Source: Gammaproteobacteria bacterium
Lineage (GTDB): Bacteria > Pseudomonadota > Gammaproteobacteria > Steroidobacterales > Steroidobacteraceae
Direction: 5' to 3'
NCBI GenBank assembly: GCA_020029535.1
Contig: JAIBJM010000009.1
Location: forward strand, 1 to 53,855
DNA: 53,855 bases
Within the stretch, counting starts at the first letter, position 1. Each line of letters starts with the position of its first letter. Under the pieces are notes generated by a model. That model made no database searches. It was not told the origin of the DNA and saw only the letters and a list, made by a program, of their open reading frames with translations. Positions 2,691 to 46,024 of this stretch are shown piece after piece. The position numbers were made by a program, and so were the translations under genes.

Positions 2691-2924
2691 ATGCTGCCAA
2701 CCATGTCATGGCAAGACATCATCACCCTGGAGCCAGGTAAACGTGGCGGAAGGCCCTGCGTCCGCAATATGCGGATTGCCGTGGCGGACGTGCTGGGCTG
2801 GCTGGCCGCGGGCATGACGCACCAGGACATCATCAGCGACTATCCTGAACTGACCGAGAACGACATCCGCGCTTGTCTGGCTTATGCCGCGGATCGTGAG
2901 CGCCGCATTCTGACCGCGGCATGA
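2691..2924 (+). CDS. DUF433 protein, probable antitoxin of a DUF433/DUF5615 pair
   Basis: The product has about 77 residues. It contains the DUF433 pattern: a short ITLEPGKRGGRPCVRNMRI segment followed by a winged-helix-like part (VLGWLAAGMTHQDIISDYPELTENDIRACLAYA). DUF433 proteins are small putative DNA-binding antitoxins. It overlaps the next gene by 4 nt (ATGA), the normal arrangement for this pair. The start at 2691 follows an AGGGA run; ATG 2703 (MSWQDI) is an alternative. It begins just 26 nt after flgN and is not a flagellar gene, so it looks acquired. Confidence 0.8.
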   Translation: MLPTMSWQDIITLEPGKRGGRPCVRNMRIAVADVLGWLAAGMTHQDIISDYPELTENDIRACLAYAADRERRILTAA

Positions 2925-3253
2925 AGCTGCTGTTCGATCAGAACCTCAGTTTCAATCTCTGTAGACTGCTCGCAGATTCGTTTCCCGACTCCAGTCAAGT
3001 GCGGTTGCTCGGCCTGGATCGGGCTGACGACAGGGCGGTCTGGCAGTACGCCAAGGACAATGGCTTTGTACTCGTTTCACAAGATGCCGATTTCGCGGAC
3101 CTGGCCGCGCTTTACGGTCCACCGCCCAAGTTGATCTGGCTGCGTTGCGGAAATCAACCTACAGCGATAATCGCGGCGCGGCTCAGCAATCATGCCGAAG
3201 CTGTCACCGAATTCGACAGAGACTCCATCGCCGCTTGCCTTGAAATCTTCTGA
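2921..3253 (+). CDS. DUF5615 PIN-like toxin/nuclease
   Basis: The 110-residue product starts MKLLFDQNLS, the N-terminal acidic block of DUF5615/Mut7-C-like PIN domains. It also has DRAVWQYAKDNGFVLVSQDADFADL with the second acidic cluster (SQDADF), and PPKLIWLRCGN, typical of the family. PIN-like proteins of this group are putative metal-dependent RNases acting as the toxin partner of DUF433 proteins. All expected acidic residues are present, so it looks intact. The pair is flanked by two copies of flgM/flgN sequence. Toxicity and target are inferred from the family. Confidence 0.8.
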   Translation: MKLLFDQNLSFNLCRLLADSFPDSSQVRLLGLDRADDRAVWQYAKDNGFVLVSQDADFADLAALYGPPPKLIWLRCGNQPTAIIAARLSNHAEAVTEFDRDSIAACLEIF

Positions 3254-3363: not shown

Positions 3364-3774
3364 GCGATCTGCCCGAGATCGACAGCGGCCGCGTCGAACG
3401 CCGGCGCTATCGCCAACATCGGCGCCAGCCGCCACGACGGCATTGCCGCCCTGACCTGGCTCGAAGCCGAACGCGTCGCCAGCTGTCGCATGCTGTCCTT
3501 CGGCGAAGGCGGCGCCGCCTTCAACAAGCTGCTGCAGTGGTTCGACGACAGCGGCGAACTGCGCCAGCGCTGGCAGGGCAACCTGCAACAGGCGCGGCGC
3601 TGCAAGGAAATCAACGAACGCAACGACATCCTGGTCAACGCCCAGCTGCATCATGTGCAGCAGCTGCTGACCGCGATGCGCGGCGGCGCGCAGGCGCCGG
3701 TGTACTCGGCGCAGGCGTCGCGCGTGGCGCCGTTTGCCAGCGGGGAGCTGGGGAGCGCGCTTGGATTTTATTAG
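3364..3774 (+). pseudogene. Decayed flgM'-flgN' duplicate
   Basis: Positions 3364-3402 repeat the flgM stretch at about 2030-2068 (GATCTGCCCGAGATCGACAG). From about 3403 the sequence repeats flgN from about 2304 to its 3' end, with an internal deletion of about 240 bp joining the two out of frame. The flgN part stays open and reads SRHDGIAALTWLEAERVAS and later CKEINERNDILVNAQ, but it lacks the N-terminal quarter of FlgN and extends past the old stop to end GSALGFY. An ATG at 3490 could give a 94-residue FlgN C-terminal fragment; nothing suggests it is functional. The surrounding stretches 3254-3363 and 3775-3920 show no gene. Confidence 0.8.
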
Positions 3775-3920: not shown

Positions 3921-6128
3921 TCATCGGACACCGACCAGATCCCGCACCAGGGTTTTCCCGTCCGCCATATCCTGCCTACCGACAATACCGCGTAGCGCCT
4001 GCTCGGCGTTACGCAGAATCGTTTCCCGATCCCAGTTTTCGATCGCGTACCTGCGTCCGCAGCGACCAAGTTCTTCCCGCAGACTCGCGTCATCCAGCAG
4101 CCTCTGCAATGCAGCGGCGAAAGCAGTGGTGTCTCCGGGTGGAACAACCAGGCCTCCGACCGACGCCGCGCGCGCCACATCGGAACCCATGCGCGTACTG
4201 GCCACTACCGGACGGCCGCTGGCCATGATCGCGGTCAGTTTCGAAGGCATGACCAGATCCTCAGCACCCTGACGCTGCGGAAGCATGTGGACATCCGCCA
4301 ATCCGAGCAGCTGATTCAACCGGGAGAGAGGCTGCAGCGGCAGAAACCGCACGTTATCGAGTCCCTCGGCGGCGTCCATGATGCGTCGCTTCGCGGCGCC
4401 ATCGCCGCACAGCAGGAACAGTGCATTCCGGGATGTCGAGGCGAAAATTTTCGCCACCTGCACCAGCAGCTCAAGACCCTGCTTTTCACCCATGTTGCCC
4501 GAGTAGAGCAGCACCGCTGTTTCTGCCGGAATGCCCAGCTCCTGGCGCAGGCGATTTTTTCCGGACACCGGCTTTATCAGCGCTGTATCCACCCAGTTCG
4601 GAAAGTATCCGATACGAGCCCTTTCCACGCCCTTGCGCAGGAGCTTTCGGAGCATGCGCATTGAAATGCTCGATACGAAGTCGAAACGTCGCATCAGCCA
4701 TCGTTCCATCTGAACGGCAAACTTCCGCAGTCGCTCGTCGCGGAGCAGCCCGAGTTCGAATGCTGCATCCACTTCGAAGTCCTGGACATGCAGCCAGGAT
4801 CGCGCACCGCAAATCCACGCACCAAGAGCCGCAGCGGGCGCACAGCCCAGCGGTGGCTCCACGACAAGCACGAGTTTCGGCCGCCAGAACAGCGCTTGCC
4901 AGACGATGACGGGTAACGTGGACAGCGAGAAGGAAATTGTATGCACCAGGCGCGTCATGCCTCCCGGCCGTCGCGGCACGAACAACGGACATCGATAAAC
5001 CAATGCTCCGAAATGCTGCTCCACTGAATATCGCCGCGAGGAATAGCCCGACGCCACGCGCCACGCCGGATAGTACGGCGGCGCGGTAATCACGTGGATG
5101 TCGAATCCCGCTTGCGACATCCAGGCCGTCATCTCGCCGACATACTTGCCGATGCCGGTGATTTCCGGAGCGAAGTTGCTGGTGATGACCAGAACCCGCC
5201 CCTGCGGGTTCGACATCGGGCCGCGATCGCTCGCCACAACGGGCATTTCTATCGCCAGCGCTTCCCTGAGCCGCCGCCGATCGCCACTGAATCTGAGCAG
5301 CAACCAGAGCTCGCCCAGCAGCAGCAGCACGCAGCCCATGAAGATGACCCAGCCCTCAAACAGGTGCAGAAATTCCGGTGTGCCTTCGGCGCGGCTGATT
5401 TGCATGCCAAGCATCCCGATGCGCACGCCATTCATCAGTATGGCAATCGGAATTGTCGACAACATGATCAGGACATGAACCCACGCACGTCCCTTCACTA
5501 CGAACGCCATGATCGTCCCGATCGTCAGTAGCGGGAACAGGTAGTTCAGCCCCGTACCGATCTCCGTCAACTGGAGCGTGTGGGTCCCGAAGTCAATGAC
5601 TGTTTCGTCGAGAAAAGCGCTGGTGCCCAGCAACCTGATGATGCCAACGCCCAGTTGGGACGAAAGCAGTTGCAGCTCGGAAGACAGGGCGTTATGAATG
5701 ATTTCTGGCAGCGGAATGGACAGCAGAAGCAGAGCCAGTGGCGCCAGCGCGAGCTTGAACGAATTCCATCCCATCAGCGTCAGGAAGCAGCCGCCTGTCA
5801 CCACCAGCAGCGCATAGGCTGCCAGGGATCCGTCTGTCGCGGTGGAGAGGAAAAAGAACGCCACGAATCCTGCCAGCACGACCAGTGCGCCAGCTCCTGT
5901 GGCCTGGAAGTGCCGCTGCCTGACCTGGGGCCAGCGCTGCCAGAGCAAAAACCCGCTCAGCAGCGGAATGAGAAAGCAATGGCTGTATTCGTTGCGATGC
6001 CAGCTCGCGTACAGAAAGACCAACGTATCCCGGAAAACGAAGGCCACGATGGCCGCAGCTGCGGCCGCGGCCAGTTTCTGCCGGCGGCTAAGGGCATAGG
6101 CGGGAGCTGGCGAGGTTCTCGCAATCAT
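3921..6128 (-). CDS. Fusion of a cysteine-less exosortase (XrtD-like) domain and a WcaI-like GT4 glycosyltransferase
   Basis: This 735-residue protein has two parts. Residues about 1-300 form a multi-pass exosortase domain clearly paralogous to XrtD in this window (shared ALAPLALLLL, FLIPLLSGFLLWQR, GDRRRLREALAIE). Exosortases cut and transfer CTERM proteins with a Cys/Arg/His triad. Here Arg236 (NGVRIG) and His255 (FLHLFEGW) remain, but the EACSGLR cysteine motif reads EIGTGLN, with Gly191 in place of Cys. Residues about 308-735 are a GT4 enzyme like WcaI (SNFAPEITGIGKYVGEM, NMGEKQGLELL, GAEDLVMPSKLTAIMASG). In XrtD the same point is followed by an EpsI domain. An ATG at residue 305 (5214-5216) could allow a separate glycosyltransferase but has no good ribosome site. 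I infer a membrane-anchored glycosyltransferase on a non-catalytic exosortase scaffold. Confidence 0.85.
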   Translation of the reverse strand: MIARTSPAPAYALSRRQKLAAAAAAAIVAFVFRDTLVFLYASWHRNEYSHCFLIPLLSGFLLWQRWPQVRQRHFQATGAGALVVLAGFVAFFFLSTATDGSLAAYALLVVTGGCFLTLMGWNSFKLALAPLALLLLSIPLPEIIHNALSSELQLLSSQLGVGIIRLLGTSAFLDETVIDFGTHTLQLTEIGTGLNYLFPLLTIGTIMAFVVKGRAWVHVLIMLSTIPIAILMNGVRIGMLGMQISRAEGTPEFLHLFEGWVIFMGCVLLLLGELWLLLRFSGDRRRLREALAIEMPVVASDRGPMSNPQGRVLVITSNFAPEITGIGKYVGEMTAWMSQAGFDIHVITAPPYYPAWRVASGYSSRRYSVEQHFGALVYRCPLFVPRRPGGMTRLVHTISFSLSTLPVIVWQALFWRPKLVLVVEPPLGCAPAAALGAWICGARSWLHVQDFEVDAAFELGLLRDERLRKFAVQMERWLMRRFDFVSSISMRMLRKLLRKGVERARIGYFPNWVDTALIKPVSGKNRLRQELGIPAETAVLLYSGNMGEKQGLELLVQVAKIFASTSRNALFLLCGDGAAKRRIMDAAEGLDNVRFLPLQPLSRLNQLLGLADVHMLPQRQGAEDLVMPSKLTAIMASGRPVVASTRMGSDVARAASVGGLVVPPGDTTAFAAALQRLLDDASLREELGRCGRRYAIENWDRETILRNAEQALRGIVGRQDMADGKTLVRDLVGVR

Positions 6129-6215
6129 CGCTTCGAGTCTAGCGATGCGGTATGTCAGTTTCCGTACACGGCTCCGGCCGTCATGTCGGTTCCATGTATC
6201 GCAATTGTCATACGT

Positions 6216-6303
6216 TCATGAGTGCGGCGCTAAGGTGCTGGTGTATCCGGCGCAAGCCTCGCGCGCGACGGGGTTTGCGAGCCGGGTGCCGGGGAGCGCA
6301 TAG
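6216..6303 (+). pseudogene. Remnant of the flgN 3' end (third copy)
   Basis: In the flgN frame this reads VLVYPAQASRATGFASRVPGSA and then a stop. That aligns with the intact FlgN tail VYSAQASRVAPFASRELGCA, which stops at the same point. At DNA level the match to the 3364-3774 copy is roughly 75% over the last ~77 nt by eye and fades upstream. The remnant lies 2.4 kb beyond the second copy, on the far side of the exosortase-glycosyltransferase gene. It overlaps, in antisense, the 3' end of the next glycosyltransferase gene. Confidence 0.7.
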
Positions 6304-7333
6304 ACAAACCCGCATCGCGGTAGACCTGCACGGTCTCCGCGGCAACATCGCGCCAGGTTCGACGCGTGGCGTACTCACGCGCGGCATCGCACTGCGCAGC
6401 TGTAACGGCCACGACGCGTCGTAGTCCATCGGCGATGGACTCGATCGATTCCGGTTCCACCAGCACGGCGTTGCCGCCCGCCGCTTCCTCCGTCGCCCGT
6501 CCCGCGCTGGTCAGCACGGCAGTGCCGCAGGCCATCGCTTCGATGACCGGCAGGCCGAAGCCTTCGAAGGTCGATGGCATGCACAGCGCGGTCGCGCATG
6601 AAAGCAGCACCGGCAGGTCTGCATCGCCTATCGGGCCGATAAAACGGATCGAGCCGCGCTCGAGGTTGATTGCCAGCAGCCGTTCGCGCGTGCGACGGGA
6701 TTGTCTGCCGACGATGCAGAGTGGCATGTCCAGTCCGCACACCGCGTACGCGGCGGCCAGGCGATCGAGATTCTTGTTGCTACGGTCGCGACCCACAAAG
6801 AGAAGGAATTCGTCGGGTAATCCAAGCCTCTGCCGCAACCGCAACTTTACCGGTTCGGCTGCCGGCACGAAATCGGGACCGGCCGCCAGCGGAATGGCCA
6901 CCGTTCGGCTCTCGGGTACATTCAACAACTCATGCACCTGCGCACGCGTGAAGTGGCTGACGCACACGATGCGATCGGCTCGCGTCACGTACCCGGCGTG
7001 GTAGCGTATTTCCTCCAGCGAAAGCTGCCGCGGCCTCTGAATCGCATACAGATCGTGCACCGTTGCGATCTCCACCGGCGACTTCCATTCTGGAAAAATG
7101 CAGGCCGTGGCATGGAACAGCTGCGGCCGCCGGCGCGGTGGTGTGGCGCCGAAGAATCGGACCCGCACATTGCCAGGCTTGAGAAACCAGCCCGGCAGGC
7201 GGCGCCACTTGGCCCATCCCTCCACTTCGACGGATTGCGTCGCCAATCCGGCCAGCAGCGAACTGGAGTAACGCGCCATGCCCGAGTAACGAGGACGCAA
7301 CAGGTCGCCGACTTCGATGCCAATGTCCGTCAT
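6230..7333 (-). CDS. Glycosyltransferase family 4 (GT-B)
   Basis: A 367-residue GT4 enzyme, probably adding a sugar to the lipid-linked polysaccharide repeat unit at the inner face of the membrane. It shows VHDLYAIQRP and RIVCVSHFTRAQ in the acceptor half. The donor half has VGRDRSNKNLDRL and the E-x7-E nucleotide-sugar motif EGFGLPVIEAMACG. The last ~24 residues (from about SMRSPAPGSQ) are encoded antisense to the flgN remnant and are proline-rich, so this tail looks newly acquired. The gene is followed by 101 nt and then the exosortase-glycosyltransferase fusion on the same strand. Confidence 0.9.
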   Translation of the reverse strand: MTDIGIEVGDLLRPRYSGMARYSSSLLAGLATQSVEVEGWAKWRRLPGWFLKPGNVRVRFFGATPPRRRPQLFHATACIFPEWKSPVEIATVHDLYAIQRPRQLSLEEIRYHAGYVTRADRIVCVSHFTRAQVHELLNVPESRTVAIPLAAGPDFVPAAEPVKLRLRQRLGLPDEFLLFVGRDRSNKNLDRLAAAYAVCGLDMPLCIVGRQSRRTRERLLAINLERGSIRFIGPIGDADLPVLLSCATALCMPSTFEGFGLPVIEAMACGTAVLTSAGRATEEAAGGNAVLVEPESIESIADGLRRVVAVTAAQCDAAREYATRRTWRDVAAETVQVYRDAGLSMRSPAPGSQTPSRARLAPDTPAP

Positions 7334-10621: not shown

Positions 10622-11506
10622 ATGCTGAAACAACGCAAAGGCATCATCCTCGCCGGTGGCTCCGGCACGCGTCTGCACCCCGTGACGCTGGGCGTCAGCA
10701 AGCAGCTGCTGCCGGTGTACGACAAGCCCATGGTGTACTACCCGCTGTGCACGCTGATGCTGGCCGGCATCCGCGACATACTGATCATCTCCACGCCCGA
10801 GGATCTGCCGGCTTTCCGCCGCATGCTGGGTGACGGCAGCCAATGGGGAATCGCCCTGTCGTACGCGGAACAGCCGCGACCGGACGGACTGGCGCAGGCC
10901 TTCATCATCGGCCGCTCCTTCATCGGCCGGGATCTGGCGGCGCTGGTGCTCGGCGACAACATCTTCTATGGCCACGGCCTGCCCGAGCAGCTGCTGGCCG
11001 CCAATCAGCGCGCCGATGGCGCGACGGTGTTTGCCTATCGCGTGCGCGATCCGGAACGTTACGGCGTGGTGCACTTCGATGCGCAGGGTCGGGCGCTGGG
11101 CATCGAGGAAAAGCCGACGCAGCCCAAATCGCATTACGCGGTCACCGGCCTTTATTTCTACGACAACAGCGTGCTGGATATCGCCGCATCGCTGCAGCCC
11201 TCGGCGCGCGGCGAGCTGGAGATCACCGACGTCAACCGGATTTATCTCGAGCGCAGCGCATTGCAGGTGGAACTGATGGGCCGCGGCATTGCCTGGCTGG
11301 ATACCGGCACGCATGAATCGCTGATGCAGGCCGGCAATTTCATCGAGGCCATCGAGAGCCGCCAGGGACTGAAGGTCAGCTGCCCCGAAGAAATCGCCTG
11401 GCGCGCCGGCTACATCGACGCCGCGCAGCTCGAGAAACTGGCGCGCGGACTGGCGAAGAGCGGTTATGGCAGCTACCTGCTGGGCCTGCTGCAGGATCGG
11501 TACTGA
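10622..11506 (+). CDS. rmlA: Glucose-1-phosphate thymidylyltransferase RmlA
   Basis: RmlA makes dTDP-glucose from glucose-1-phosphate and dTTP, the first step of dTDP-L-rhamnose synthesis. The 294-residue protein has the nucleotidyltransferase motif [14 protein letters not shown] (residues 7-20) and [17 protein letters not shown]. It also has [21 protein letters not shown] and [12 protein letters not shown], all typical of RmlA, and full family length. It overlaps rmlC by one base. It starts the compact rmlA-rmlC-rmlD-rmlB cluster. Confidence 0.97.
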
Positions 11507-12054
11507 TGAATGTTCAGCCCACCCGCCTGCCCGAGGTGCTGCTGATCACGCCGCGCGTGCATGGTGATGCACGTGGTTTTTTCCAGGAGACCTGGCACCG
11601 CGAACGCTTCGCGGCGGCCGGCATCGATCACGCCTTCGTGCAGGACAATCACAGCCATTCGGGCCAGGGCGTGCTACGCGGCCTGCATTTCCAGATCCGC
11701 CAGCCGCAGGGCAAGCTGGTGCGTGTGACGCGCGGTGCCGTGTTTGACGTGGCCGTGGACATGCGGCGCAGCTCACCGCGCTTCGGTCAGTGGGTCGGCG
11801 CCGAACTCACCGCTGACAACCATCGCATGCTATGGGTGCCACCGGGCTTCGCACATGGCTTCCTGACGCTGCGCGATGACACCGACTTCCTGTACAAGTG
11901 CACCGACTACTACGACCCGCAACACGAGCGCGCGGTACGCTGGAACGATCCGCGCATCGGCATCGAGTGGCCGATTCCCTCCGGCGTGGTGCCCCAACTG
12001 TCGGCGCGCGACGCCGCGGCACCGCTGCTGGCCGAGGCCGAGTCCTTTCCATGA
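11506..12054 (+). CDS. rmlC: dTDP-4-dehydrorhamnose 3,5-epimerase RmlC
   Basis: RmlC epimerises dTDP-4-keto-6-deoxyglucose at C3 and C5. The 182-residue cupin shows DARGFFQETWH (residues about 21-31), FVQDNHSHSGQGVLRGLHFQ with the active-site His, KLVRVTRGAVFDVAVD, and WVPPGFAHGFLTL with the family's PGFAHGF motif. Length is normal. The start overlaps the rmlA stop and its stop overlaps the rmlD start by 4 nt, so translation is coupled. Confidence 0.97.
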   Translation: MNVQPTRLPEVLLITPRVHGDARGFFQETWHRERFAAAGIDHAFVQDNHSHSGQGVLRGLHFQIRQPQGKLVRVTRGAVFDVAVDMRRSSPRFGQWVGAELTADNHRMLWVPPGFAHGFLTLRDDTDFLYKCTDYYDPQHERAVRWNDPRIGIEWPIPSGVVPQLSARDAAAPLLAEAESFP

Positions 12055-12920
12055 AGGTGCTGATCACCGGCGCTGCCGGCCAGCTGGGCAGCGAACTGCA
12101 GCGGCGTACACCCGCCGGCGCCGAGGTCGTGGCGCTGGACCGGCGGCATCTGGATCTCACCGACGAGCCTGCCGTTCACGCCGCAGTCGAAAAGTTGCAC
12201 CCCGCGGTGATCATCAACGCCGCGGCCTACACCGCCGTGGACCGCGCCGAATCCGAGCCCGAGCAGGCACAACGGGTCAACGCCGTGGCACCGGCCCATC
12301 TGGCCACCGCGGCATCGCGCATCGGTGCGCGGCTGCTGCATGTGTCCACCGACTATGTCTTTTCCGGCGAAGCCGCGCGCCCCTACACCACCGACGATGC
12401 GCCGGCGCCGCTCGGTGTCTACGGCCACAGCAAGCTCGAAGGCGAACGCGCGGTGCTGGAACAGCTACCCGCGCAAAGCGTTGTGCTGCGCGTGTCCTGG
12501 CTGTACGGGCCGCGCGGACAGAATTTTCTGCTGACCATGTTGCGGCTGATGAAAGAGCGTGGCGCGGTGCGCGTGGTGGCCGACCAGATCGGCTGCCCGA
12601 CCAGCACGGCTTCCGCTGCGGATGCGCTGTGGGCATTGGCGGCGCGGCCGCAGCTGACCGGCCTGTTCCACTGGAGCGAGGCCGGTGTGGCCAGCTGGTA
12701 TGACTTCGCCGTGGCGATTGCCGAAGAAGCCGCCACAGGCGCACTGTTGCCACCGAATGTATCGGTGACACCGATTACCACCGCCGAATACCCGACTCCC
12801 GCGCGACGCCCGCGCTTCAGTCTGCTGGATTCCCGACGCACGCGCGAGGTTCTGGAACTACAACCCGTGCACTGGCGCGGCGGTCTGCGCAGTGTGCTGG
12901 GCGAGCTGTCCCATGTCTAG
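12051..12920 (+). CDS. rmlD: dTDP-4-dehydrorhamnose reductase RmlD
   Basis: RmlD reduces dTDP-4-dehydrorhamnose to dTDP-L-rhamnose with NAD(P)H. The 289-residue SDR-type protein has the nucleotide motif MKVLITGAAGQLGSEL and INAAAYTAVDRAESEP. The catalytic STDYVFSG and the YGHSKLEGE (YxxxK) motif follow, as does LRVSWLYGPRGQNF. The start at 12051 overlaps the rmlC stop (ATGA), and the longer frame from 11898 is spurious. The 3' end overlaps rmlB by 8 nt. Confidence 0.96.
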   Translation: MKVLITGAAGQLGSELQRRTPAGAEVVALDRRHLDLTDEPAVHAAVEKLHPAVIINAAAYTAVDRAESEPEQAQRVNAVAPAHLATAASRIGARLLHVSTDYVFSGEAARPYTTDDAPAPLGVYGHSKLEGERAVLEQLPAQSVVLRVSWLYGPRGQNFLLTMLRLMKERGAVRVVADQIGCPTSTASAADALWALAARPQLTGLFHWSEAGVASWYDFAVAIAEEAATGALLPPNVSVTPITTAEYPTPARRPRFSLLDSRRTREVLELQPVHWRGGLRSVLGELSHV

Positions 12921-13977
12921 ATTGCTGGTCACCGGCGGCGCCGGTTTCATCGGCTCGAACTTCGTTCACCACTGGCTGCGCGAACATCCCGGCGATCGGG
13001 TGGTGGTGCTGGATGCACTGACCTACGCCGGCAACCGCGCCAATCTCGAACCGCTGGCGGCGCGCACGGAACTGCGCTTCGTGCATGGCGACATCTGCGA
13101 TACCGCGCTGGTGGAGACCCTGCTGCGCGAGGAGGCGCTGGATGCCGTCGTGCACTTCGCCGCCGAGTCGCATGTGGATCGCTCGATTGCCGGGCCCGAC
13201 GCCTTCGTCCATACCAATGTGGTGGGTACCCACTCGCTGCTGCGCGCGGCGCGGCGCTGCTGGCTTGAATTGCGCACTGTGCCACAGCACCGCTTTCATC
13301 ACGTTTCAACGGATGAAGTTTATGGCTCGCTCGGCCCGCACGATCCGGCCTTCACCGAGACCACGCCCTACGCGCCGAACTCCCCTTACTCGGCCAGCAA
13401 GGCCGCCTCCGATCATCTGGTGCGCGCCTACCATCACACCTACGGACTGGACACCACGATCAGCAACTGTTCGAACAACTACGGGCCCTGGCATTTTCCA
13501 GAGAAGCTGATCCCGCTGATCATCGTCAATCTGCTCGAGGGCAAGCCGCTGCCCGTGTACGGCGACGGGCGCAATGTGCGCGACTGGCTGCACGTGGCCG
13601 ATCACTGCCGTGGCATCGATCGGGTGCTGACCTGCGGACGCCCGGGCGAGGTGTACAACATCGGCGGACGCGCCGAGAGCGAAAACATTGAGCTGGTGCG
13701 CCAGCTGTGTTCGCTGGCAGACGCGGCCTTCGCCGCCGATGCAACATTGGCGAAGCGTTTCCCCGCTGCGCCGGCCGCGCGTGGCGCGCGCAGCGACACG
13801 CTGATCCGCTTCGTCACCGACCGGCCGGGCCACGATCGCCGCTACGCCATCGACTGCGGCAAGGCTGAGCGCGAACTGGGCTTTGCGCCGGCGATGCGCC
13901 TCGACAGCGGGCTTCAGCAGACGCTGCGCTGGTACCTCGACCATGAGCACTGGTGGCGCGCGCTGCTGGCGCGCTGA
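12913..13977 (+). CDS. rmlB: dTDP-glucose 4,6-dehydratase RmlB
   Basis: RmlB converts dTDP-glucose to dTDP-4-keto-6-deoxyglucose. The 354-residue SDR protein has VTGGAGFIGSNFVHHW (about residues 6-21), HFAAESHVDRSI, the catalytic STDEVYGSL, PNSPYSASKAASDHLVRAY (YxxxK) and NNYGPWHFPEKLIP, all diagnostic. Length is normal. It is the last gene of the rml cluster, although its enzyme acts second. Its last 64 bp overlap the convergent gene at 13914-15899. Confidence 0.97.
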   Translation: MSRLLVTGGAGFIGSNFVHHWLREHPGDRVVVLDALTYAGNRANLEPLAARTELRFVHGDICDTALVETLLREEALDAVVHFAAESHVDRSIAGPDAFVHTNVVGTHSLLRAARRCWLELRTVPQHRFHHVSTDEVYGSLGPHDPAFTETTPYAPNSPYSASKAASDHLVRAYHHTYGLDTTISNCSNNYGPWHFPEKLIPLIIVNLLEGKPLPVYGDGRNVRDWLHVADHCRGIDRVLTCGRPGEVYNIGGRAESENIELVRQLCSLADAAFAADATLAKRFPAAPAARGARSDTLIRFVTDRPGHDRRYAIDCGKAERELGFAPAMRLDSGLQQTLRWYLDHEHWWRALLAR

Positions 13978-15904: not shown

Positions 15905-18301
15905 TCAGACCTTGCCGCGCGCGGCTTCCAGTGTGCGGCGAGCCTCTTCAGCACCATTGAAGGCTGTGCCCGATTTCAATGCCAGCTCCAGATTCTTCGC
16001 CGCATTGGTGCGATCGCCGGCAGCGTACTGCGCCATGCCCAGGTGATAGCGCAGCAGCGGCACGGCCGGTGCGTTGTCCACCGCCTGCTGCAGCAGCGGC
16101 AGCGACTCGCGGACTTCGCCGCGCTTGTACCTGACCCAGCCGCGCGTGTTGATGAACGACGGTTCGCGCGACCGCGCCAATGTATCGGCCAGCCTGGCCG
16201 CGCGATCGAGACTGGCGCGATCGCTGCGGTTGCTGACCAGCAGCATGGCGAGATTGTTGGCCGCTACCAGCAGTTGCGGGTGGCGCCGGTTCAGATCCTC
16301 GTAAACGGCGATCGCATCATCGTAGCGACCCAGCCGCTGGTACAGTGCCGCCAGATCGCTGGCCAGTTCCACCGAACCGGCGCTGGCGGTGCCGCCGGCC
16401 TTCAGCGTGGCAATGGCAGCGTCATTCTGTCCCGACGCCATCTGCGTCAACGCCTTGCCGCGATAGGGCTGCCACCATTTCGGCGAGCGGTCTATAGTTG
16501 CATCGAAGGCCGCCACCGCCTCGGTATGGCGCTTCTGCGTCATCAGCAATTCGCCGCGCAAGTTCAGCGCCAGCAGATTGCCGGCATCCTTCGCGATGGC
16601 AGTGTCGACACGCTGAAGGGCGCGGGCCGCACCACCGCTGTTCATTTCAAGACGGACCAGCGCGGTAAAGGGCTCCACGGCTTCCGGCTGCAATTGCAGC
16701 GCACGTTCGTAGCCGGCGCGCGCCGCATCGGTCTTTTTCTCAGCCTCATCGATCAGCGCGACGAAGAACGGACCCAGCGCCAGATCCGGACGCAGGCGGC
16801 GCACTTCCTCTGCGGTACGTCGCGCATCGGCCAGCTGCCGTTGGCCGAGCTGCAGCCGGAACAGCGCCTGATGCGCATCCATATTTGCGGGATCCAGCTT
16901 GATCAGATCATCGAGCACCGCCCGCACCTCGTTGGAACGCCCGGACTGCGCCAGCAGCGCGGCGAGGTCCAGCCGCGTGGCCGCGGCACGCGGATCGACC
17001 TGCACCGCCGCACGCAGCGCATCTTCAGCCAGTGCGTTGTCGCCATTCTGCAGATAGGCACGCGCCAGCTGTCGCATCACCGGCACCGACTCGGGCTGCT
17101 CGCGCAATACCGCGCGCAGATCGGTGATGGCGGCGTCGGCATTGCCACGCGACAGTGCGATCGCACCGCGCAGCGCCAGTGCCTCGCTGTCGCGCGGACT
17201 GGTCAACAGCACTTCGCCGATCAGCGTCTCGGCGCCGGCCACATCGTTCTTCTGCAGCAGCATGACGGCCAGCCGATCGCGCGCCTGTAGTCCGTCCGCG
17301 TTGGTGCCTGCTGCGGCGACGACCTTGCGATAGACAGCCTCGGCCTCCGCCGGCTTGCGGAATCCTTGGTAGAAACGCCCGGCGGCCAGCTGCAACGTCG
17401 TGTCGGCCGCTTGCTTCGCAAGCATGGCCTGCAGCTCACGCTCGGCAGGCTCGAACCCGCGCTGTGCGGCCAGCATTTCAATCAGCGCCAGCCTGGCGTC
17501 CACATCGGCCGGCGCAACGGCGATGGCCTCACGCAGCGCGCGTTCGGCGCCATCGACATCCTTGTTCAGCAACCGCAACCGCGCCAGCCGCTGGCGATGA
17601 ACCAGCTCGCGCGGTTCGAGTTCGATGATCTTCTGCAGCTGTGCCTCCGCCTCGGTACCGCGCCCAGCGTGCTGCAGCAGATCGGCCAGGATGACGCGCA
17701 GTTCGGCATCGGCGCCGGCGCGGGCCACACCCGCCTGCAATGTCGCGATGGCCTCATCGGTACGATTGGCGGAGCGGTACAGTGAGGCCAGCATGGCCAG
17801 CGCATAGGCGTTGTCGGGCGCATTCTTCACCGCCTTTTCCGCGTCGGCCAGCGCCTCGGTGGACTGCCCATTGCGCGCGCGGACAGCTGCGCGCACCGTC
17901 AGCAGACCGGCATCATCCGGATGCTTCACCAGACCCGGTTCGGCGTATTCCATGGCCTTGTCGCTGGCGCCGGCCAGCACATACAGCCGCGCCGCGGCGG
18001 CGCGCGCCGGCAGGTATTCCGCGTCGGCTTCCAGCGCCGCCAGATAATTGCCCAGCGCATCGCGCGGATTGTTGAGTTTCTCGGCGACCTGCCCCGACTG
18101 GTAGCGGGCACGTGCATTCTTCGGATCGATCTGCAGCGCATTGCTGTATTCGACGCGTGCCTTCTCATAGTTTGCTTCGGCGAAATAGCGGTCGCCGCGC
18201 TCGAGATACTGCGACTTGCGCGCCTCGGTGCCCGAACACCCGGCGGCGCTCAGCGCCGACACCACTGCGAAAATCGCCCAGCTGCGAGTGAATGCGGCCA
18301 T
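15905..18301 (-). CDS. prsT: PEP-CTERM system TPR-repeat lipoprotein (PrsT type)
   Basis: About 798 residues: a lipoprotein signal (lipobox LSAAGC, Cys22) followed by more than fifteen tetratricopeptide repeats. Examples are YFAEANYEKARVEYSNALQI, NPRDALGNYLAALEAD, and VDGAERALREAIAVAP. This matches the PrsT family of long TPR lipoproteins that accompany exosortase/exopolysaccharide loci and are thought to act in polysaccharide or CTERM-protein export. A longer frame begins at 18346, but ATG 18301 has an AGGAG site and starts directly before the signal peptide. It lies between the WecA-like gene and the repeat-protein gene, 5 nt from the latter. Confidence 0.85.
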   Translation of the reverse strand: MAAFTRSWAIFAVVSALSAAGCSGTEARKSQYLERGDRYFAEANYEKARVEYSNALQIDPKNARARYQSGQVAEKLNNPRDALGNYLAALEADAEYLPARAAAARLYVLAGASDKAMEYAEPGLVKHPDDAGLLTVRAAVRARNGQSTEALADAEKAVKNAPDNAYALAMLASLYRSANRTDEAIATLQAGVARAGADAELRVILADLLQHAGRGTEAEAQLQKIIELEPRELVHRQRLARLRLLNKDVDGAERALREAIAVAPADVDARLALIEMLAAQRGFEPAERELQAMLAKQAADTTLQLAAGRFYQGFRKPAEAEAVYRKVVAAAGTNADGLQARDRLAVMLLQKNDVAGAETLIGEVLLTSPRDSEALALRGAIALSRGNADAAITDLRAVLREQPESVPVMRQLARAYLQNGDNALAEDALRAAVQVDPRAAATRLDLAALLAQSGRSNEVRAVLDDLIKLDPANMDAHQALFRLQLGQRQLADARRTAEEVRRLRPDLALGPFFVALIDEAEKKTDAARAGYERALQLQPEAVEPFTALVRLEMNSGGAARALQRVDTAIAKDAGNLLALNLRGELLMTQKRHTEAVAAFDATIDRSPKWWQPYRGKALTQMASGQNDAAIATLKAGGTASAGSVELASDLAALYQRLGRYDDAIAVYEDLNRRHPQLLVAANNLAMLLVSNRSDRASLDRAARLADTLARSREPSFINTRGWVRYKRGEVRESLPLLQQAVDNAPAVPLLRYHLGMAQYAAGDRTNAAKNLELALKSGTAFNGAEEARRTLEAARGKV

Positions 18302-18396
18302 GCGAAAACTCCTGGAAAATGACCCGGGCGACCGGTCGGACGCCACGCCGGAGTGGCAGCGTAGGCAGCTGAGTTGACAGACGTGTTACAGCGAGC

Positions 18397-20034
18397 TCAT
18401 GTCCAGGGCAGGCTGCGTAATCCTGCAATCAGCAGCGCGCAGAAAGTGCCCCAGTGCAGCGGATGCCAGCGCGAACCGATGCCGCCGAGCACCACTTCGC
18501 AGGCATAGAACAGGGTGATGACATAACTCACGAACTGCACGGTCTCCATCGTGCGCACGTCGATGCTGCCGAAGGCAATCAGCGCCAGCACACCGAATAC
18601 CATCAGGAAATCGGTGGGCGTGGCGCCGAACTGCCGGCTGGCCATGAAGCGGATGTACAACGCCAGCAGCACCGCAACCAGCACGACCAGGACAGTGACC
18701 AGCGTCAGCGCCTGTGCGCCACCCGGCCCGGGGTAGCGCGTCAGCAAATAAGCCGAGAAGGCCACCGTGGCATACACCGCTGCGCGCACCGGCAGCGACT
18801 GCGTGGCCCGACCGCGCAACAGCGGCACCAGCATCAGGGCGGCCAGCAGCGAGGCCACGATGCCAAAGTCCATCGGCACCTCACCGACCCAGACCGCAGC
18901 GCCCAGCATGAAGGCCGCGATGGCCGCGGTGATTACACCCAGCACCAGCTGCCGCGGTCCCGGACTTGCAAGCCAGTGCAGCGGTTCCGAGCGCGCAGCA
19001 CCGGCCGATACCGCAGCGGGTGACCGCAGTCGCCAGCCGCTGCGCTCACCGGCAACCAGCACGACGAACAGCGCGCCGACCGCCAGAAAGTAGGTCGCAC
19101 TGACGATCAGGTCCGACTCGTAACGCAGCAATACGCCGGCAGTCACCAGCGCCGCCTGCAGCGAATAGATCAGCACCACGGTCTGGAAGTGGCTGAAACC
19201 GAGATCCAGCAAACGATGATGCACATGATTGCGCGTGGCGCGGAACCAGCTCATGCCACCGCGGATGCGCTGGAACAGCACCGCGACGATGTCGGCCAGC
19301 GGCAAGCCGAGCAACAGCAAGGGCAACGCCGCGCTGACCGCAGTGCTGGCCACCTGCGTCAGATACACCGCGAGAAATCCCAGCGTGAAACCCAGCACCT
19401 GGCTGCCGGCGTCGCCCATGAAGACGCGGGCCGGATGGGTGTTGTAGCGCAGGAAGCCCAGCGTTCCGCCGATGGTGGTCAGGGCAATGCCCACGGCCAA
19501 CCCGCTCTTCACCAGATAGCCCAGCACCGCCATCGCCACCAGGCTCAGCAGCGATTCGCCGCCGGCCAGGCCATCGAGCCCGTCCGAGTGATTGATCGCG
19601 TTGATCACACCGACCAGCGCGACCATCGTGAACGGACGGCCCAATGCCGGATCCAGCGTCGTCGGTTCGATGAATGGCAGCCGCGTGACGTACAGGTCGC
19701 CGTGATACACCACCAGCGCCACGGCAATGAACTGCCCCACGAACTTGGGCCAGTGACCGATCTCGCGCGCGTCGTCCCACATGCCGAACAGGAACAGCAC
19801 CAGCGCACCGCCGACGAAGGACTGCAGCAACGGATCAAACGGAAACAACAGCAGCAGCGGCGTGACGCAGCCAAGCACGATGCCCCAGCCACCGACGCGC
19901 GGCACCGGCAGCGCATGCACCTTGCGCGGATCGGGCATGTCGATCATACCCAGCCGCGGCGCCAGCCGGCAGGCCAGTGGAATCAGCAGCATGCTGACGG
20001 CAATGGCCATCACCAGCAGGAAGAACGCGTTCAT
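18397..20034 (-). CDS. WecA/TagO-like undecaprenyl-phosphate sugar-phosphate transferase with long C-terminal membrane extension
   Basis: The first ~340 residues are a polyprenol-phosphate HexNAc-1-phosphate transferase. It has MPDPRKVHALPVPRVGGWGI, FGMWDDAREIGHWPKF (catalytic DD), INHSDGLDGLAGG, RVFMGDAGSQVLGF and the cytoplasmic HVHHRLLDLGFSH. Such enzymes load the first sugar-phosphate onto the lipid carrier, so this is the likely initiating enzyme of the polysaccharide pathway here. At 545 residues it exceeds the usual ~350. The remaining ~200 residues form a further hydrophobic region with several predicted membrane spans and no recognised motif. It follows xrtD by 3 nt. Confidence 0.88.
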   Translation of the reverse strand: MNAFFLLVMAIAVSMLLIPLACRLAPRLGMIDMPDPRKVHALPVPRVGGWGIVLGCVTPLLLLFPFDPLLQSFVGGALVLFLFGMWDDAREIGHWPKFVGQFIAVALVVYHGDLYVTRLPFIEPTTLDPALGRPFTMVALVGVINAINHSDGLDGLAGGESLLSLVAMAVLGYLVKSGLAVGIALTTIGGTLGFLRYNTHPARVFMGDAGSQVLGFTLGFLAVYLTQVASTAVSAALPLLLLGLPLADIVAVLFQRIRGGMSWFRATRNHVHHRLLDLGFSHFQTVVLIYSLQAALVTAGVLLRYESDLIVSATYFLAVGALFVVLVAGERSGWRLRSPAAVSAGAARSEPLHWLASPGPRQLVLGVITAAIAAFMLGAAVWVGEVPMDFGIVASLLAALMLVPLLRGRATQSLPVRAAVYATVAFSAYLLTRYPGPGGAQALTLVTVLVVLVAVLLALYIRFMASRQFGATPTDFLMVFGVLALIAFGSIDVRTMETVQFVSYVITLFYACEVVLGGIGSRWHPLHWGTFCALLIAGLRSLPWT

Positions 20035-20037
20035 CGC

Positions 20038-21600
20038 TCAGTCTGGAATGTAACGGGTCAGCCGCGTGACGGCCTCGGCGGCGAAGCGGCCGAGCCGCGC
20101 ATCCGCGGCACCGATGGCCTCGCCTTCGCGCAGCGGCGTGATCAGGCGCACCAGGGCGCCATCGGTGCGCTGACGACGCAGCGAATCGACAAACAGATAC
20201 CACTTGACGGCATATTCGTTGGTGACCACGCGGCCGCGCTGCTGGAACCAGTAATAGACCAGCTGTCGCGCGGAGCCCTGCCCGATGACGACGCGGTTGA
20301 CCTGCAGCGGCGTGGCGCCGATCCGTACGCCCGGAACCTGGTAGCGGCCGATCTCGGTCATGCGCCAGCCATTGCCGGGCAGGCACGATGCAGGCGAATG
20401 CGCCGACACGCCGGTGCGCTGCGAGGCGTAGTACGCCACATACAAATTCACCGGCGACTGCGCCGGCAGCGCATAGTCGGCCATCAGGTAATCATCGAGC
20501 TTCAGGATGTCGAGCGTGTCGGCGTCGAGACGGCCGCGACGCCCGCTCCAGGCATCCAGCTGCAGCGGAAAGCCGCTCAGCGCATCGCGCTCCGGCACGA
20601 GCTCTTCGCGCTGCGGGATGGCGCGCGCTGGCAGAGCCACGGCCAGCAGTACCAGCAGTGCAACGATAGCCGGCGCACCCAGCGCACGCGGCTGCGCTGC
20701 GGCACCCGCAGCGCGCGGTGCCGGCCAGTCGATGGCGAAGATCTCGCGCAGCGGACGGCGGTCGCCGGTCAACCGCAACAGCAGCCAGCTTTCGGCGATC
20801 AGCAGCACCATGCAGGCCATGAAGATGATCCAGCCCTCGAAGTCGTGCAGGAAGCCCTCGGCCTGCTCGATGCCGAAACGATCCACCAGCACACCGATGA
20901 CACCGATGCGGAAACTGTTCATCAGTATGGTGATCGGTACCGTCGACAGCACGATCACCGCGCGAATCCACAGGCGGCTGCGGCAGAACATGGCCACGAT
21001 CACACCCAGCGTGAACAGCGGAAACAGGTAGCGCAGTCCGCTGCAAGCCTCGACCACCTGCAATTTGTAGCTGCCGAGATCGATGACATTGCCTTCGAGA
21101 AAAACGCTGATGCCGAACAGCCGGATCACCGCCACACCAAGCTGCGAAGAAATCAGCTGCAACTGCGAGGACAGATTGTTGTACAGGAACGCCGGCAGCG
21201 GGTTCATCAGCAACAGCAGGGCCAGTGGCGCCAGCGCAATGCGAAAGGCGCGCCAGCCCAGCGCCGCCAGCACCGCGCCAGCGATGACGATCACCATCGC
21301 GTAAGCATCCACCGCCGTGATTGCCGCCAGTGTCCCGAGCACATAGAGGGCCAGGCCGACCAGCATCAGCGCCACACCGGCCCAGCTGCCGTTGAAAGGC
21401 AAGGCTTCGAATTGCCGCCGCCGCTGCCACAGCAGCAGCCCACTGAGGATGGGAATCAGGAAGCCGTGGCTGTATTCCTCGCGCTGCCAGTTGGCGTACA
21501 GGTACACATAAGTGTTCTGGAACAGGTACGACAACGCCGCCGCGGCAACCAGCACGGCAAGCAATTGGCGGCGCGTAAACAGATAAGCGGTGGTGCTCAT
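20038..21600 (-). CDS. xrtD: Exosortase D (VPLPA-CTERM specific) with C-terminal EpsI domain
   Basis: A membrane transpeptidase predicted to cleave and anchor VPLPA-CTERM proteins. With the start at 21600 the catalytic residues are Cys186 (EACSGLRYL), Arg231 (NSFRIG) and His252 (FLHDFEGW). About eight membrane spans lie in residues 15-285. After about residue 300 comes a periplasmic EpsI/DUF3485 domain (SPASCLPGNGW, QLVYYWFQQRGRV), the architecture known for XrtD. Three proteins with PLPA/PLPG-type CTERM tails lie in the window (43230, 44281, 45008) and are likely substrates. GTG 21615 would add five residues. It heads a leftward operon with the WecA-like, PrsT and repeat-protein genes. Confidence 0.92.
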   Translation of the reverse strand: MSTTAYLFTRRQLLAVLVAAAALSYLFQNTYVYLYANWQREEYSHGFLIPILSGLLLWQRRRQFEALPFNGSWAGVALMLVGLALYVLGTLAAITAVDAYAMVIVIAGAVLAALGWRAFRIALAPLALLLLMNPLPAFLYNNLSSQLQLISSQLGVAVIRLFGISVFLEGNVIDLGSYKLQVVEACSGLRYLFPLFTLGVIVAMFCRSRLWIRAVIVLSTVPITILMNSFRIGVIGVLVDRFGIEQAEGFLHDFEGWIIFMACMVLLIAESWLLLRLTGDRRPLREIFAIDWPAPRAAGAAAQPRALGAPAIVALLVLLAVALPARAIPQREELVPERDALSGFPLQLDAWSGRRGRLDADTLDILKLDDYLMADYALPAQSPVNLYVAYYASQRTGVSAHSPASCLPGNGWRMTEIGRYQVPGVRIGATPLQVNRVVIGQGSARQLVYYWFQQRGRVVTNEYAVKWYLFVDSLRRQRTDGALVRLITPLREGEAIGAADARLGRFAAEAVTRLTRYIPD

Positions 21601-21685
21601 GGCTCGGGATTGCACGGTCCCGGGATGCTAGCGACCTGATGTGTCACTTTTGTGCAATGTGGCGACCCTATAAAGGCGCCGTCAC

Positions 21686-43229: not shown

Positions 43230-43715
43230 TTAAGCCGTATGAACTGTGACAATCGCCTGCTTGCGCAGCAGGCGGGACGCGCAGGCAAGACCGGTCGCCA
43301 GCAGCCAGAGGCTGGCGGGCAGCGGTACGGAATTCATCGGCGAGAACTGCACATCGAGTGTGTACAGGCCCAGGCTCCGGGCGCCCTGGGCAATGCCGAA
43401 AATGCTGGTCGAGAACACCTGCTGCGCGCTGACGGTCAGGTACAGGGCGCCCGGACCGGTAACGGTCTGCAGATGAGTGCCGCCGCTGTTCAGATCCAGT
43501 CGCAACGACTGCAGCACCGAGGTGAAATTGACGTCGCTGAGCGTGATGGTGACGGTACCGGCGGTCGTCGCCCGAAAGTCGGTGACCGACTGGTTTCTGC
43601 CGAGTACCGGTACGGCGTCGTAGAAACTGCCGCTGTCCGTCAGTGAAACCACATCAGCCATGGCCGGAGCGATACCCAGCAGCAAGCACAGCGGCAACGC
43701 GCGCAACGGATTCAT
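43230..43715 (-). CDS. Small VPLPA-CTERM protein with one copy of the repeat module
   Basis: A 161-residue secreted protein: signal peptide (1-20, cut after IAPAMA), a single beta-rich domain and a C-terminal sorting signal SVPLPASLWLLATGL (about 129-143) followed by basic RLLRKQ. The domain (VTITLSDVNFTSVLQSLRL ... SLGLYTLDV) matches the ~100-residue unit repeated five times in the 13914-15899 protein; the distance from the Asp to the later Tyr strand, 57 residues, is close to the 54-59 in those repeats. VPLPA signals are cut by XrtD, encoded at 20038-21600. It is coupled to the RHH gene upstream by a 4-nt overlap and precedes the export gene by 15 nt. Confidence 0.85.
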   Translation of the reverse strand: MNPLRALPLCLLLGIAPAMADVVSLTDSGSFYDAVPVLGRNQSVTDFRATTAGTVTITLSDVNFTSVLQSLRLDLNSGGTHLQTVTGPGALYLTVSAQQVFSTSIFGIAQGARSLGLYTLDVQFSPMNSVPLPASLWLLATGLACASRLLRKQAIVTVHTA

Positions 43716-44218
43716 GCGGCCTCGCCCTGGTCGGCGACACCATTGCCGCCCACGCGTGCCGCATAGCCATACTTTTCGTACAGATAGCGACGCAGCGTCT
43801 GCGATAGCTGCTCGCTTTCGCCGGATGGCGTATCGCCGTTGTGATGACTGCCGATCCTCGACAGCCGCAGCATGGCGTAGGACTGATGCGTGGCACTCAT
43901 CGCCATCAGCTGGATGTCCTCGAGATCCATGCGCGCAGCCGGCTCGACGCCATCATTGATGATGCCTTCCAGACGCGCGACATCGATGTCCAGATAGCGG
44001 AACAGCTCCGCGGCGATCTCGGCAAACACCGGTACCAGATTGCGTCCGCGCACGCTGCCATCAGCCAGCGGCCCGAATCGGGTCAGCATGGTCTTCACGG
44101 CGAAGCGGATCACATCCGAATCCCTGACCCCAAGGCGTTTCGCCAATCTCTTGATACTGCGGATATCCGCGGCACTCATACGAATCGACATTGCCTGCTT
44201 GCGGCTATCCATGCTCAT
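43712..44218 (-). CDS. Ribbon-helix-helix DNA-binding protein at the head of the polysaccharide operon
   Basis: A 168-residue protein. Residues about 9-48 (AMSIRMSAADIRSIKRLAKRL, then DSDVIRFAVKTMLTRFG) fit a ribbon-helix-helix domain: a short strand followed by two helices. The remainder (LVPVFAEIAAELFRYLDIDVARLEGII and a C-terminal RYLYEKYGYA) is helical and not recognised. It is the first gene of the long leftward operon and overlaps the VPLPA-CTERM gene by 4 nt. An 8-bp direct repeat (44250-44271) lies just upstream, the kind of site RHH proteins bind. A GGAG-containing site precedes the start. I infer an autoregulated controller of the locus. Confidence 0.7.
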   Translation of the reverse strand: MSMDSRKQAMSIRMSAADIRSIKRLAKRLGVRDSDVIRFAVKTMLTRFGPLADGSVRGRNLVPVFAEIAAELFRYLDIDVARLEGIINDGVEPAARMDLEDIQLMAMSATHQSYAMLRLSRIGSHHNGDTPSGESEQLSQTLRRYLYEKYGYAARVGGNGVADQGEAA

Positions 44219-44280: not shown

Positions 44281-44808
44281 TCAGTGCGTGCCGGCTCGCC
44301 GGCGCGCGAGGCCAAGCAGCCCAAGCAGCCCCGAACCCAGTAACGCCAGACCGCCGGGCAACGGAGTCGGCGTCACCTCCTCATCGGGGTAATGCCAATC
44401 GTGATCTCGCCAGTCTTTCCAGTGCTTCCAGCCCTTCCAGCCGCTCCAGCCTCGATGACGTCCGGGATGTCGGTGGTCATCGTCATCGTGATCGTCAAAC
44501 CTGCGCCAGCCGAGGAAATCGACCCAGGCGCCCAATGAGGTGGAGCGCGACGATCCGGACTTGTCATGCGCGTCCTCACCGGATCCGTTGTGCATCAGGA
44601 TCGTGATGGGAATTTCTTCCAGCTTTACGCCACGCCCGAAACGGTCGTGTTCGTCATCGCAAAGCGAGCGAATGGAGGAAACGCTGAATTTCTGCAGCGC
44701 GGTCGCGGGCGCCTCGCAGGTACGCCCCATGCTGGCCAGCGCCGCCATCGGCGTACAGGTCAGGGCGCAGATTGCAGCCACCGCCGTGAGCTCCCGTGTA
44801 TGCCGCAT
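44281..44808 (-). CDS. PEP-CTERM-type protein with a His/Asp/Trp-rich region
   Basis: A 175-residue secreted protein from ATG 44808 (AGGAAAC site upstream). The signal peptide runs to about residue 25 (PMAALAS). The mature part has two cysteines (TCEAP, SLCDDEHD). A charged low-complexity block at about 118-143 has alternating His, Asp, Trp and Arg (HDDDDHRHPGRHRGWSGW and WKHWKDWRDHDW). The tail is TPTPLPGGLALLGSGLLGLLGL plus RRR, a PEP-CTERM-like sorting signal with PLPG in place of VPLPA. Substrate of XrtD or of another exosortase is open. The His/Asp block could bind metal (inference). Confidence 0.8.
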   Translation of the reverse strand: MRHTRELTAVAAICALTCTPMAALASMGRTCEAPATALQKFSVSSIRSLCDDEHDRFGRGVKLEEIPITILMHNGSGEDAHDKSGSSRSTSLGAWVDFLGWRRFDDHDDDDHRHPGRHRGWSGWKGWKHWKDWRDHDWHYPDEEVTPTPLPGGLALLGSGLLGLLGLARRRAGTH

Positions 44809-44954
44809 GTTCCGTTTCCTGTTGTCTGTCCCGATGTCAACGACATGGTCCACAAAACAGGTGACAGGAACTTGACGTCTTTTTGAAGATCCAGCACCGC
44901 CTGCGGAGCATCCGTCCGGATCTCCGCATATGCCCGCTGCCGAGCCGCCTGCCC

Positions 44955-44982
44955 CGATCGCCAACCACGTTGCTGGCGATCG
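44955..44982. repeat. Nine-base-pair inverted repeat downstream of the DUF4114-like gene
   Basis: CGATCGCCA (44955-44963) and TGGCGATCG (44974-44982) pair around a 10-nt loop, about 25 nt past the stop of the leftward gene at 45008. No T-run follows, so it may be a transcript-end hairpin or a factor-dependent terminator. Confidence 0.5.
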
Positions 44983-45784: not shown

Positions 45785-46024
45785 GCACATCCGCCGCACT
45801 CCCACTGATTGCGGCGAGTGTCTTATGCAGGCGATGTATGAAAGGTGATAGCCAGTTTAAGGTTTTTTAACAAAAACGTAGCCAATACATAGGCTTACTG
45901 GCATACATTCAAATACACAATCAACAGTCGAGCGTAACTCGCAGATGAGCAGTTCGTCTTACATAATCCATACATACATATAGAGGGCAACAGGCCCTGA
46001 GGCCCGTGCGGGGAACCGTGGCGA
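45785..46024 (-). promoter_or_regulatory. AT-rich control region upstream of the DUF4114-like VPLPA-CTERM gene
   Basis: This 240-nt gap is much richer in A/T than its surroundings. It holds inverted repeats GTTTTT/AAAAAC (45862-45877) and GTAGCC/GGCTTAC (45878-45898), and several TGTATG words. A leftward TGGC-N7-TTTCA word at about 45852-45837 partly resembles a -24/-12 site but lacks the conserved G of the -12 element. I cannot assign a promoter with confidence; no gene is seen here. Confidence 0.4.

Follow-up and report, generated by a model that had tools for sequence, protein, structure and literature searches.

A gene at 3921-6128 on the minus strand of the window, by which we mean the whole analysed stretch of 53,855 nucleotides from a contig of a Steroidobacteraceae bacterium (GCA_020029535.1, JAIBJM010000009.1), encodes in a single stop-free frame a protein of 735 amino acids in which an XrtD-type exosortase core devoid of the catalytic cysteine is continued by a WcaI-family glycosyltransferase of the GT4 type. 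In the explanation that we favor, and to which we would give about even chances, the fusion is a glycosyltransferase docked at the membrane by a non-catalytic duplicate of the XrtD core, at the place where the lipid-linked glycan of the XrtD locus is made.

An exosortase-glycosyltransferase pair in one frame had been proposed in the initial annotation of this DNA, and it is borne out by Pfam and NCBIfam matches, with the glycosyltransferase at full length. Residues 26-277 match the Pfam family Exosortase_EpsH (PF09721) with 170.7 bits against a cut-off of 25.7, and the core also exceeds the cut-off of the exosortase profile TIGR02602 (129.9 against 105.55 bits). The XrtD profile TIGR04152 matches residues 40-296 with 232 bits, which is below its cut-off of 400 bits, and no EpsI domain follows the core, its place being taken by GT4. 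Together with an AlphaFold model, the PF09721 match puts the pseudo-exosortase core at about residues 20-280 (5289-6071, minus strand). Pfam GT4 domains lie between residues 324 and 692, and the WcaI-family model NF007640 covers residues 311-716 (3981-5198, minus strand) with 529.7 bits against a cut-off of 276, spanning model positions 2-408 of 411; the colanic acid WcaI model TIGR04007 gives 308 bits, short of its 800-bit cut-off. A second glycosyltransferase close to the fused one was not found in the window's genome, where the next glycosyltransferase match has 50 bits, and the Pfam exosortase family matches two genes there, the fusion and an intact XrtD.

The search with the fusion protein ran from the window's genome through every rank between genus and phylum (genus, family, order, class, phylum) and through three additional groups (handles G000-G1211), and returned two further fusions among 217 genomes of the window's family, giving three fusion genes in all, from draft genomes of 120-410 contigs. 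The fusion in G208, a member of another genus, has the same domain order and is about 64% identical overall (70% in the glycosyltransferase, 56% in the core), and the one in G026, from a third genus, has the reversed order, glycosyltransferase then exosortase core, in one frame of 734 residues, with its own XrtD next and then a WecA-like gene. No fusion beyond these two occurred among the matches listed across G000-G1211, the thresholds being E 1e-40 in the genus and family and 1e-60 in the wider groups, with five candidates scored per genome in the family search and two in those of the order, class and phylum; weaker fusions beyond these thresholds can have been missed. A scan of genome contigs with exact peptide patterns gave no further fusion in the 80 loci kept of 115 confirmed, but most relatives as divergent as 64% identity would escape such patterns.

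Catalytic residues were compared across 133 aligned exosortase-like frames, which come from loci fetched by similarity to the fusion, are distinct in sequence with near-copies remaining, and are not a random sample. Cys is present in 130 of these frames, and the three exceptions are exactly the three cores fused to a glycosyltransferase; among the 130, the triad Cys-Arg-His is complete in 128, one frame is cut off by the end of its contig or locus and one has Gln for His. The frame with Gln, at 796-2541 of locus L070, is a distant relative that keeps Cys and Arg and shares its locus with an ordinary XrtD-like gene (5053-6744). In the window, Gly191 (codon 5556-5558) stands in place of Cys, and Arg236 (5421-5423) and His255 (5364-5366) are kept; these residues and the ATG of Met305 (5214-5216), all on the minus strand, lie where the initial annotation had put them. 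The G208 core has the Cys deleted and Arg replaced by His, with a Ser remaining, and the G026 core has lost Cys and Ser by deletion, with Pro in place of His. If losses fell randomly on frames, hitting all three fused cores would have a chance of 2.6e-6, a figure that overstates the case, since the frames share ancestry and the losses may go back to just two events. Transpeptidase or protease activity of the window's fused core is predicted to be absent.

On the question, raised at the outset, whether the Gly replacement is conserved, all three fusions lack the Cys, with Gly in the window and deletions in the other two. An intact Cys in a relative would have pointed to a sequencing error or a recent loss; none of the fused relatives has one, and we rejected both possibilities given that G208 and G026 lack the Cys through different changes. 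Production of two separate proteins, which in the window would involve the ATG at 5216, was rejected for G208 and G026, whose linkers (codons 303-335 and 417-446, respectively) contain no ATG, GTG or TTG; in the window, Met295 or Met305 may serve as an additional start beside the full frame. The G208 fusion has no start codon at the place of Met305, which is perhaps the start codon of a once-free glycosyltransferase.

As for the origin of the fusions, the cores of the window and G208 are sisters in the core trees (100/100), and the closest neighbour of the pair is the XrtD of the window, a weakly supported placement (81 in one tree, 87/79 in the other). The G026 core joins its own XrtD with support of 100/99, the two being 69% identical over 313 columns and 76% over 277 trimmed codons. 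All fused cores lie inside a clade of 11 rows that holds XrtDs of the same family, and the dead cores have longer branches than the XrtDs. Forcing the three cores into one clade was 40.8 log-likelihood units worse (p-AU 0.0006), in one run on 20 chosen rows of 122 that included the motif columns and in which long branches share the model's pull. Because the core trees and the AU test speak against one clade, two duplications and two fusions that arose independently, with the domains in opposite orders and the Cys lost each time, are the best account of these sequences. One ancient fusion that was later rearranged was rejected with the single core clade in the AU test; the glycosyltransferase tree alone does not force two origins. 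There, the three fused glycosyltransferases form a clade (SH-aLRT 99) with free ones that lie directly upstream of xrtD in two relatives (G212 and G210). Of the 72 xrtD frames whose upstream sequence is long enough, 5 have a glycosyltransferase similar to the fused one directly before xrtD, and in two of these five the identity is only 26%.

Both parts of the fusion appear to be under constraint. By simple Nei-Gojobori counts at dS of 0.7-1.4, dN/dS between the window and G208 is 0.23 for the cores and 0.19 for the glycosyltransferases, and between the dead core of G026 and its own XrtD it is 0.21 (dS 0.73), the other pairs of a dead core and an XrtD giving 0.29-0.45 and pairs of XrtDs 0.22-0.32. 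Against a reference of 40 positions with 97% conservation or more across 118 other exosortases, the window core keeps 33, that of G208 30 and that of G026 34, with W43, Y48, P55, P139, P141, N233, F259, G261 and W262 kept in all three and the losses falling mostly at 175-196 and at Arg and His. Among 46 stand-alone relatives, 46 positions reach at least 95% conservation, and the fused glycosyltransferases retain 45 (window), 45 (G208) and 44 (G026) of these residues conserved in the WcaI family. These dN/dS values and counts of conserved positions suggest that the glycosyltransferase of the fusions is probably active and that the core is probably a constrained pseudoenzyme, in which a catalytic residue is lost and the remaining domain is held by selection.

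In the AlphaFold model of the fusion, 10-residue means of pLDDT in the core range from 83 to 97, except for 78 at 181-190, beside the Cys site, and 63-71 at 241-260, around the His, and the core resembles the window's XrtD (mean pLDDT 86) in the order of helices and hairpin. The pTM of the fusion model is 0.62, the placement of core and glycosyltransferase relative to each other is unreliable, and the N-lobe of the glycosyltransferase is largely below pLDDT 50. Hydropathy and charge counts mark as basic the N-terminus of the window core, residues 121-125 and 212-216, and the tail beyond 279, and find more acidic than basic residues in the loops of Cys and His. The hydropathy scan is only approximate, having missed the helix 46-64 of the model and marked one stretch within the glycosyltransferase. 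EpsH is described with eight helices in PMC1569441. Because of the ends rich in Lys and Arg, the model and the eight helices of EpsH, both termini of the core are predicted to be cytosolic, which fits fusion at either end. The hydrophobic stretch 311-329 that leads to EpsI in XrtD is absent from the fusion, and for this reason the glycosyltransferase should stay in the cytosol. Glycosylation of VPLPA-CTERM proteins by the fused enzyme, as initially suggested, is unlikely for the exported part of these proteins, since the glycosyltransferase is predicted to lie on the cytosolic side. A solved exosortase structure was found neither by sequence search nor by fold search (no match at E 0.001). For the model of XrtD with its EpsI domain (20038-21615), the best fold matches, none of them significant (lowest E 0.17), included MTC28, START-like proteins and DcrB, which may give a faint hint that EpsI, presumably the matched part, binds lipid.

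The intact XrtD with the motif EACSGLR and an EpsI domain, correctly recognized in the initial annotation as a paralog in the same window, lies at 20038-21615 on the minus strand (TIGR04152, 600 bits), represents the parent-type enzyme and is 50% identical to residues 4-300 of the fusion. Only 3 bp after xrtD follows a gene for a WecA-like polyprenyl-phosphate sugar-1-phosphate transferase (18397-20034, minus strand; PF00953, and TIGR02380 with 147.7 bits, below the 326-bit cut-off). Of 121 xrtD-like frames with at least 700 bp downstream, near-copies being counted, 60, the window's among them, have such a gene directly behind xrtD at a distance of no more than 400 bp. Next comes a PrsT-like TPR protein of the exosortase system (15905-18346, minus strand; TIGR02917 with 278 bits, below the 312-bit cut-off). 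A VPLPA-CTERM protein, a putative XrtD substrate, is encoded at 45008-45805 (minus strand; TIGR03370 over the cut-off at 45032-45100), and a second match over the cut-off (43284-43328) falls in the frame 43230-43952 (minus strand). The window's genome holds VPLPA-CTERM proteins, three of its five listed TIGR03370 matches exceeding the cut-off. Beside these genes, 44281-44964 (minus strand) encodes a protein that ends in a PLPGG-type hydrophobic and basic tail, with no match to the VPLPA model at E 0.1, which is perhaps a related sorting signal.

The proposed tie of the fusion to the VPLPA system gained in weight from the XrtD-type cores, from the presence of an intact XrtD in all three fusion genomes (window, G208 and G026), and from the G208 neighbourhood, where the fusion frame is preceded by a VPLPA-CTERM gene (TIGR03370 over the cut-off) whose end lies 53 bp from the earliest start codon of that frame and 116 bp from the ATG aligned with that of the window. 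The fusion genes of the window and G208 also have a common upstream element, AACTGNCATACNNCATCNCTA (6140-6160, minus strand, in the window; 7268-7288 in locus L152), which among 184 loci was found only in copies of these two genes. The genes at 10622-13977 are probably rfbABCD for dTDP-rhamnose, and a 6-deoxyhexose donor for the fused glycosyltransferase is possible. Elsewhere in the window, 300 bp of flgN occur twice, at 2302-2601 and 3400-3699 (93% identity), and so do 44 bp from the end of the gene before flgN, at 2028-2071 and 3364-3407 (91% identity); the two copies of each flank a DUF433/DUF5615 pair (about 2721-3253), a putative toxin-antitoxin. A gene at 49436-51265 (minus strand) combines DUF2341, a LamG-type domain and then a MotA/TolQ/ExbB proton-channel domain in one protein.

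Our explanation starts from the computed Cys loss and purifying selection, according to which a duplicate of the XrtD core would have lost its nucleophile and retained the fold and most conserved positions. With both ends predicted in the cytosol, the dead core may serve as a non-catalytic docking domain, and the gene order suggests that it would hold a WcaI-like glycosyltransferase of the XrtD locus, of the kind encoded as a free enzyme beside xrtD in some relatives, at the inner membrane face where a polyprenyl-linked glycan is assembled. That glycan would be begun by the WecA-like enzyme at the site where XrtD works, and the dead core would probably bind a partner of XrtD (the acceptor, as a lipid-linked glycan, or the VPLPA helix) or else XrtD, with the outcome that glycan assembly and sorting of VPLPA proteins may share one place. 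Against this explanation speak the small number of fusions (three genes, apparently from two events), the presence of such a glycosyltransferase directly before xrtD in only 5 of 72 frames, and the dN/dS of 0.41-0.45 that some pairs of a dead core and an XrtD reach. A bolder version, which we consider unlikely but conceivable, holds that in the XrtD system the VPLPA protein is attached to a polyprenyl-linked glycan that the WecA-like enzyme starts and the WcaI-like glycosyltransferase lengthens, the dead core being a receptor for the glycolipid or for the XrtD that carries it, so that addition of sugar is coupled to attachment.

The most serious rival, to our mind rather unlikely yet deserving attention, is a plain membrane anchor, in which a neighbouring membrane gene was recruited twice and the dead core, with no specific ligand, merely keeps the glycosyltransferase at the membrane. 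The further losses, which differ between G208 (Arg to His) and G026 (His to Pro), and the longer branches indicate a loosened active-site region, and a plain anchor would show the same, with catalytic residues lost in different ways and cores evolving faster than XrtD. Opposite domain orders also suit an anchor whose ends are both predicted in the cytosol, and repeated recruitment is easy because the free glycosyltransferase directly adjoins xrtD in some relatives. Against this, an eight-helix domain is large for an anchor, and a dN/dS of about 0.2 with 30-34 of 40 conserved positions kept suggests that more than hydrophobicity is selected.

Pseudoenzymes often act on their active kin, and the dead core could be a regulator that tunes sorting by pairing with XrtD or by occupying the substrate of XrtD, the glycosyltransferase being carried along. 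The intact XrtD of every fusion genome would suit this role, but we find it improbable, as the glycosyltransferase is unlikely to be a passenger given its conserved positions and the lack of a close second WcaI-like enzyme in the window's genome. Similarly poor are the prospects of decay, whereby the core is a degenerating, functionless duplicate that stays open only since the glycosyltransferase is translated through it. The longer branches, and the losses dispersed over conserved sites, would fit such a relic, but dN/dS is 0.21-0.23 and the same fusion persists in two genera whose cores are 56% identical. Moreover, the glycosyltransferase comes first in G026, so that its translation does not need the dead core, which is still stop-free over about 290 codons at a dS of 0.73 from its paralog. 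A core that is still catalytic, through another nucleophile or jointly with XrtD, is very improbable, for although the window keeps Arg236 and His255 and has Thr192 adjoining the lost Cys, the three cores share no candidate nucleophile, G208 having a Ser but no Arg and G026 having lost Cys, Ser and His.

The bolder version, in which the dead core is a receptor for the glycolipid or for the XrtD that carries it, would, if true, make the fusion a Rosetta stone for the acceptor of bacterial exosortases. A glycosyltransferase fused twice, in both orders, to a Cys-less exosortase copy would name as candidate acceptor the lipid-linked glycan made beside xrtD, and such repetition gives a hint that protein sorting may be tied directly to the assembly of surface sugars. 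It is also a clear case of a pseudoenzyme that arose more than once together with fusion.

Compared with XrtD (TIGR04152), the fused cores lie within its clade, that of the window being 50% identical to the window's XrtD, and they differ in having neither the catalytic Cys nor EpsI and in scoring 228-265 bits against the 400-bit cut-off. The other half is a WcaI-family glycosyltransferase by its full-length NF007640 match (529.7 bits) and 45 of 46 conserved positions, and departs from that family and from colanic acid WcaI (308 against 800 bits) in bearing a pseudo-exosortase core. Its best solved relative by sequence among GT4 enzymes is the GDP-mannose-dependent phosphatidylinositol monomannoside mannosyltransferase (PDB 3oka and 3okc; E 2e-12, spanning residues 174-397 of the 429-residue query), which belongs to another pathway and to our knowledge has no exosortase-like membrane domain. 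The exosortase acceptor is called an unidentified compound in PMC7468200, and possibly the polysaccharide or some other molecule in PMC12188702. Neither an exosortase-glycosyltransferase fusion nor a Cys-less exosortase was found in the titles and abstract openings listed from the open-licence literature. The layout is not unique to the window, as G208 and G026 have the pair. In Haft 2006 (PMC1569441), exosortase/EpsH proteins are fused to EpsI and to CAAX-protease-like domains, the family Cys is invariant, and the fusions to CAAX-protease-like domains served as functional hints. Our fusion resembles these in joining a core to a second domain that can be used as such a hint, and by the same logic it points to a glycan; it differs in that a Cys-less core and a glycosyltransferase replace the Cys-bearing family and its EpsI or protease-like partners. 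Exosortases and their EpsI and protease-like fusions were already known, and what appears to be new here, as far as the literature listed shows, is a Cys-less exosortase fused to a glycosyltransferase.
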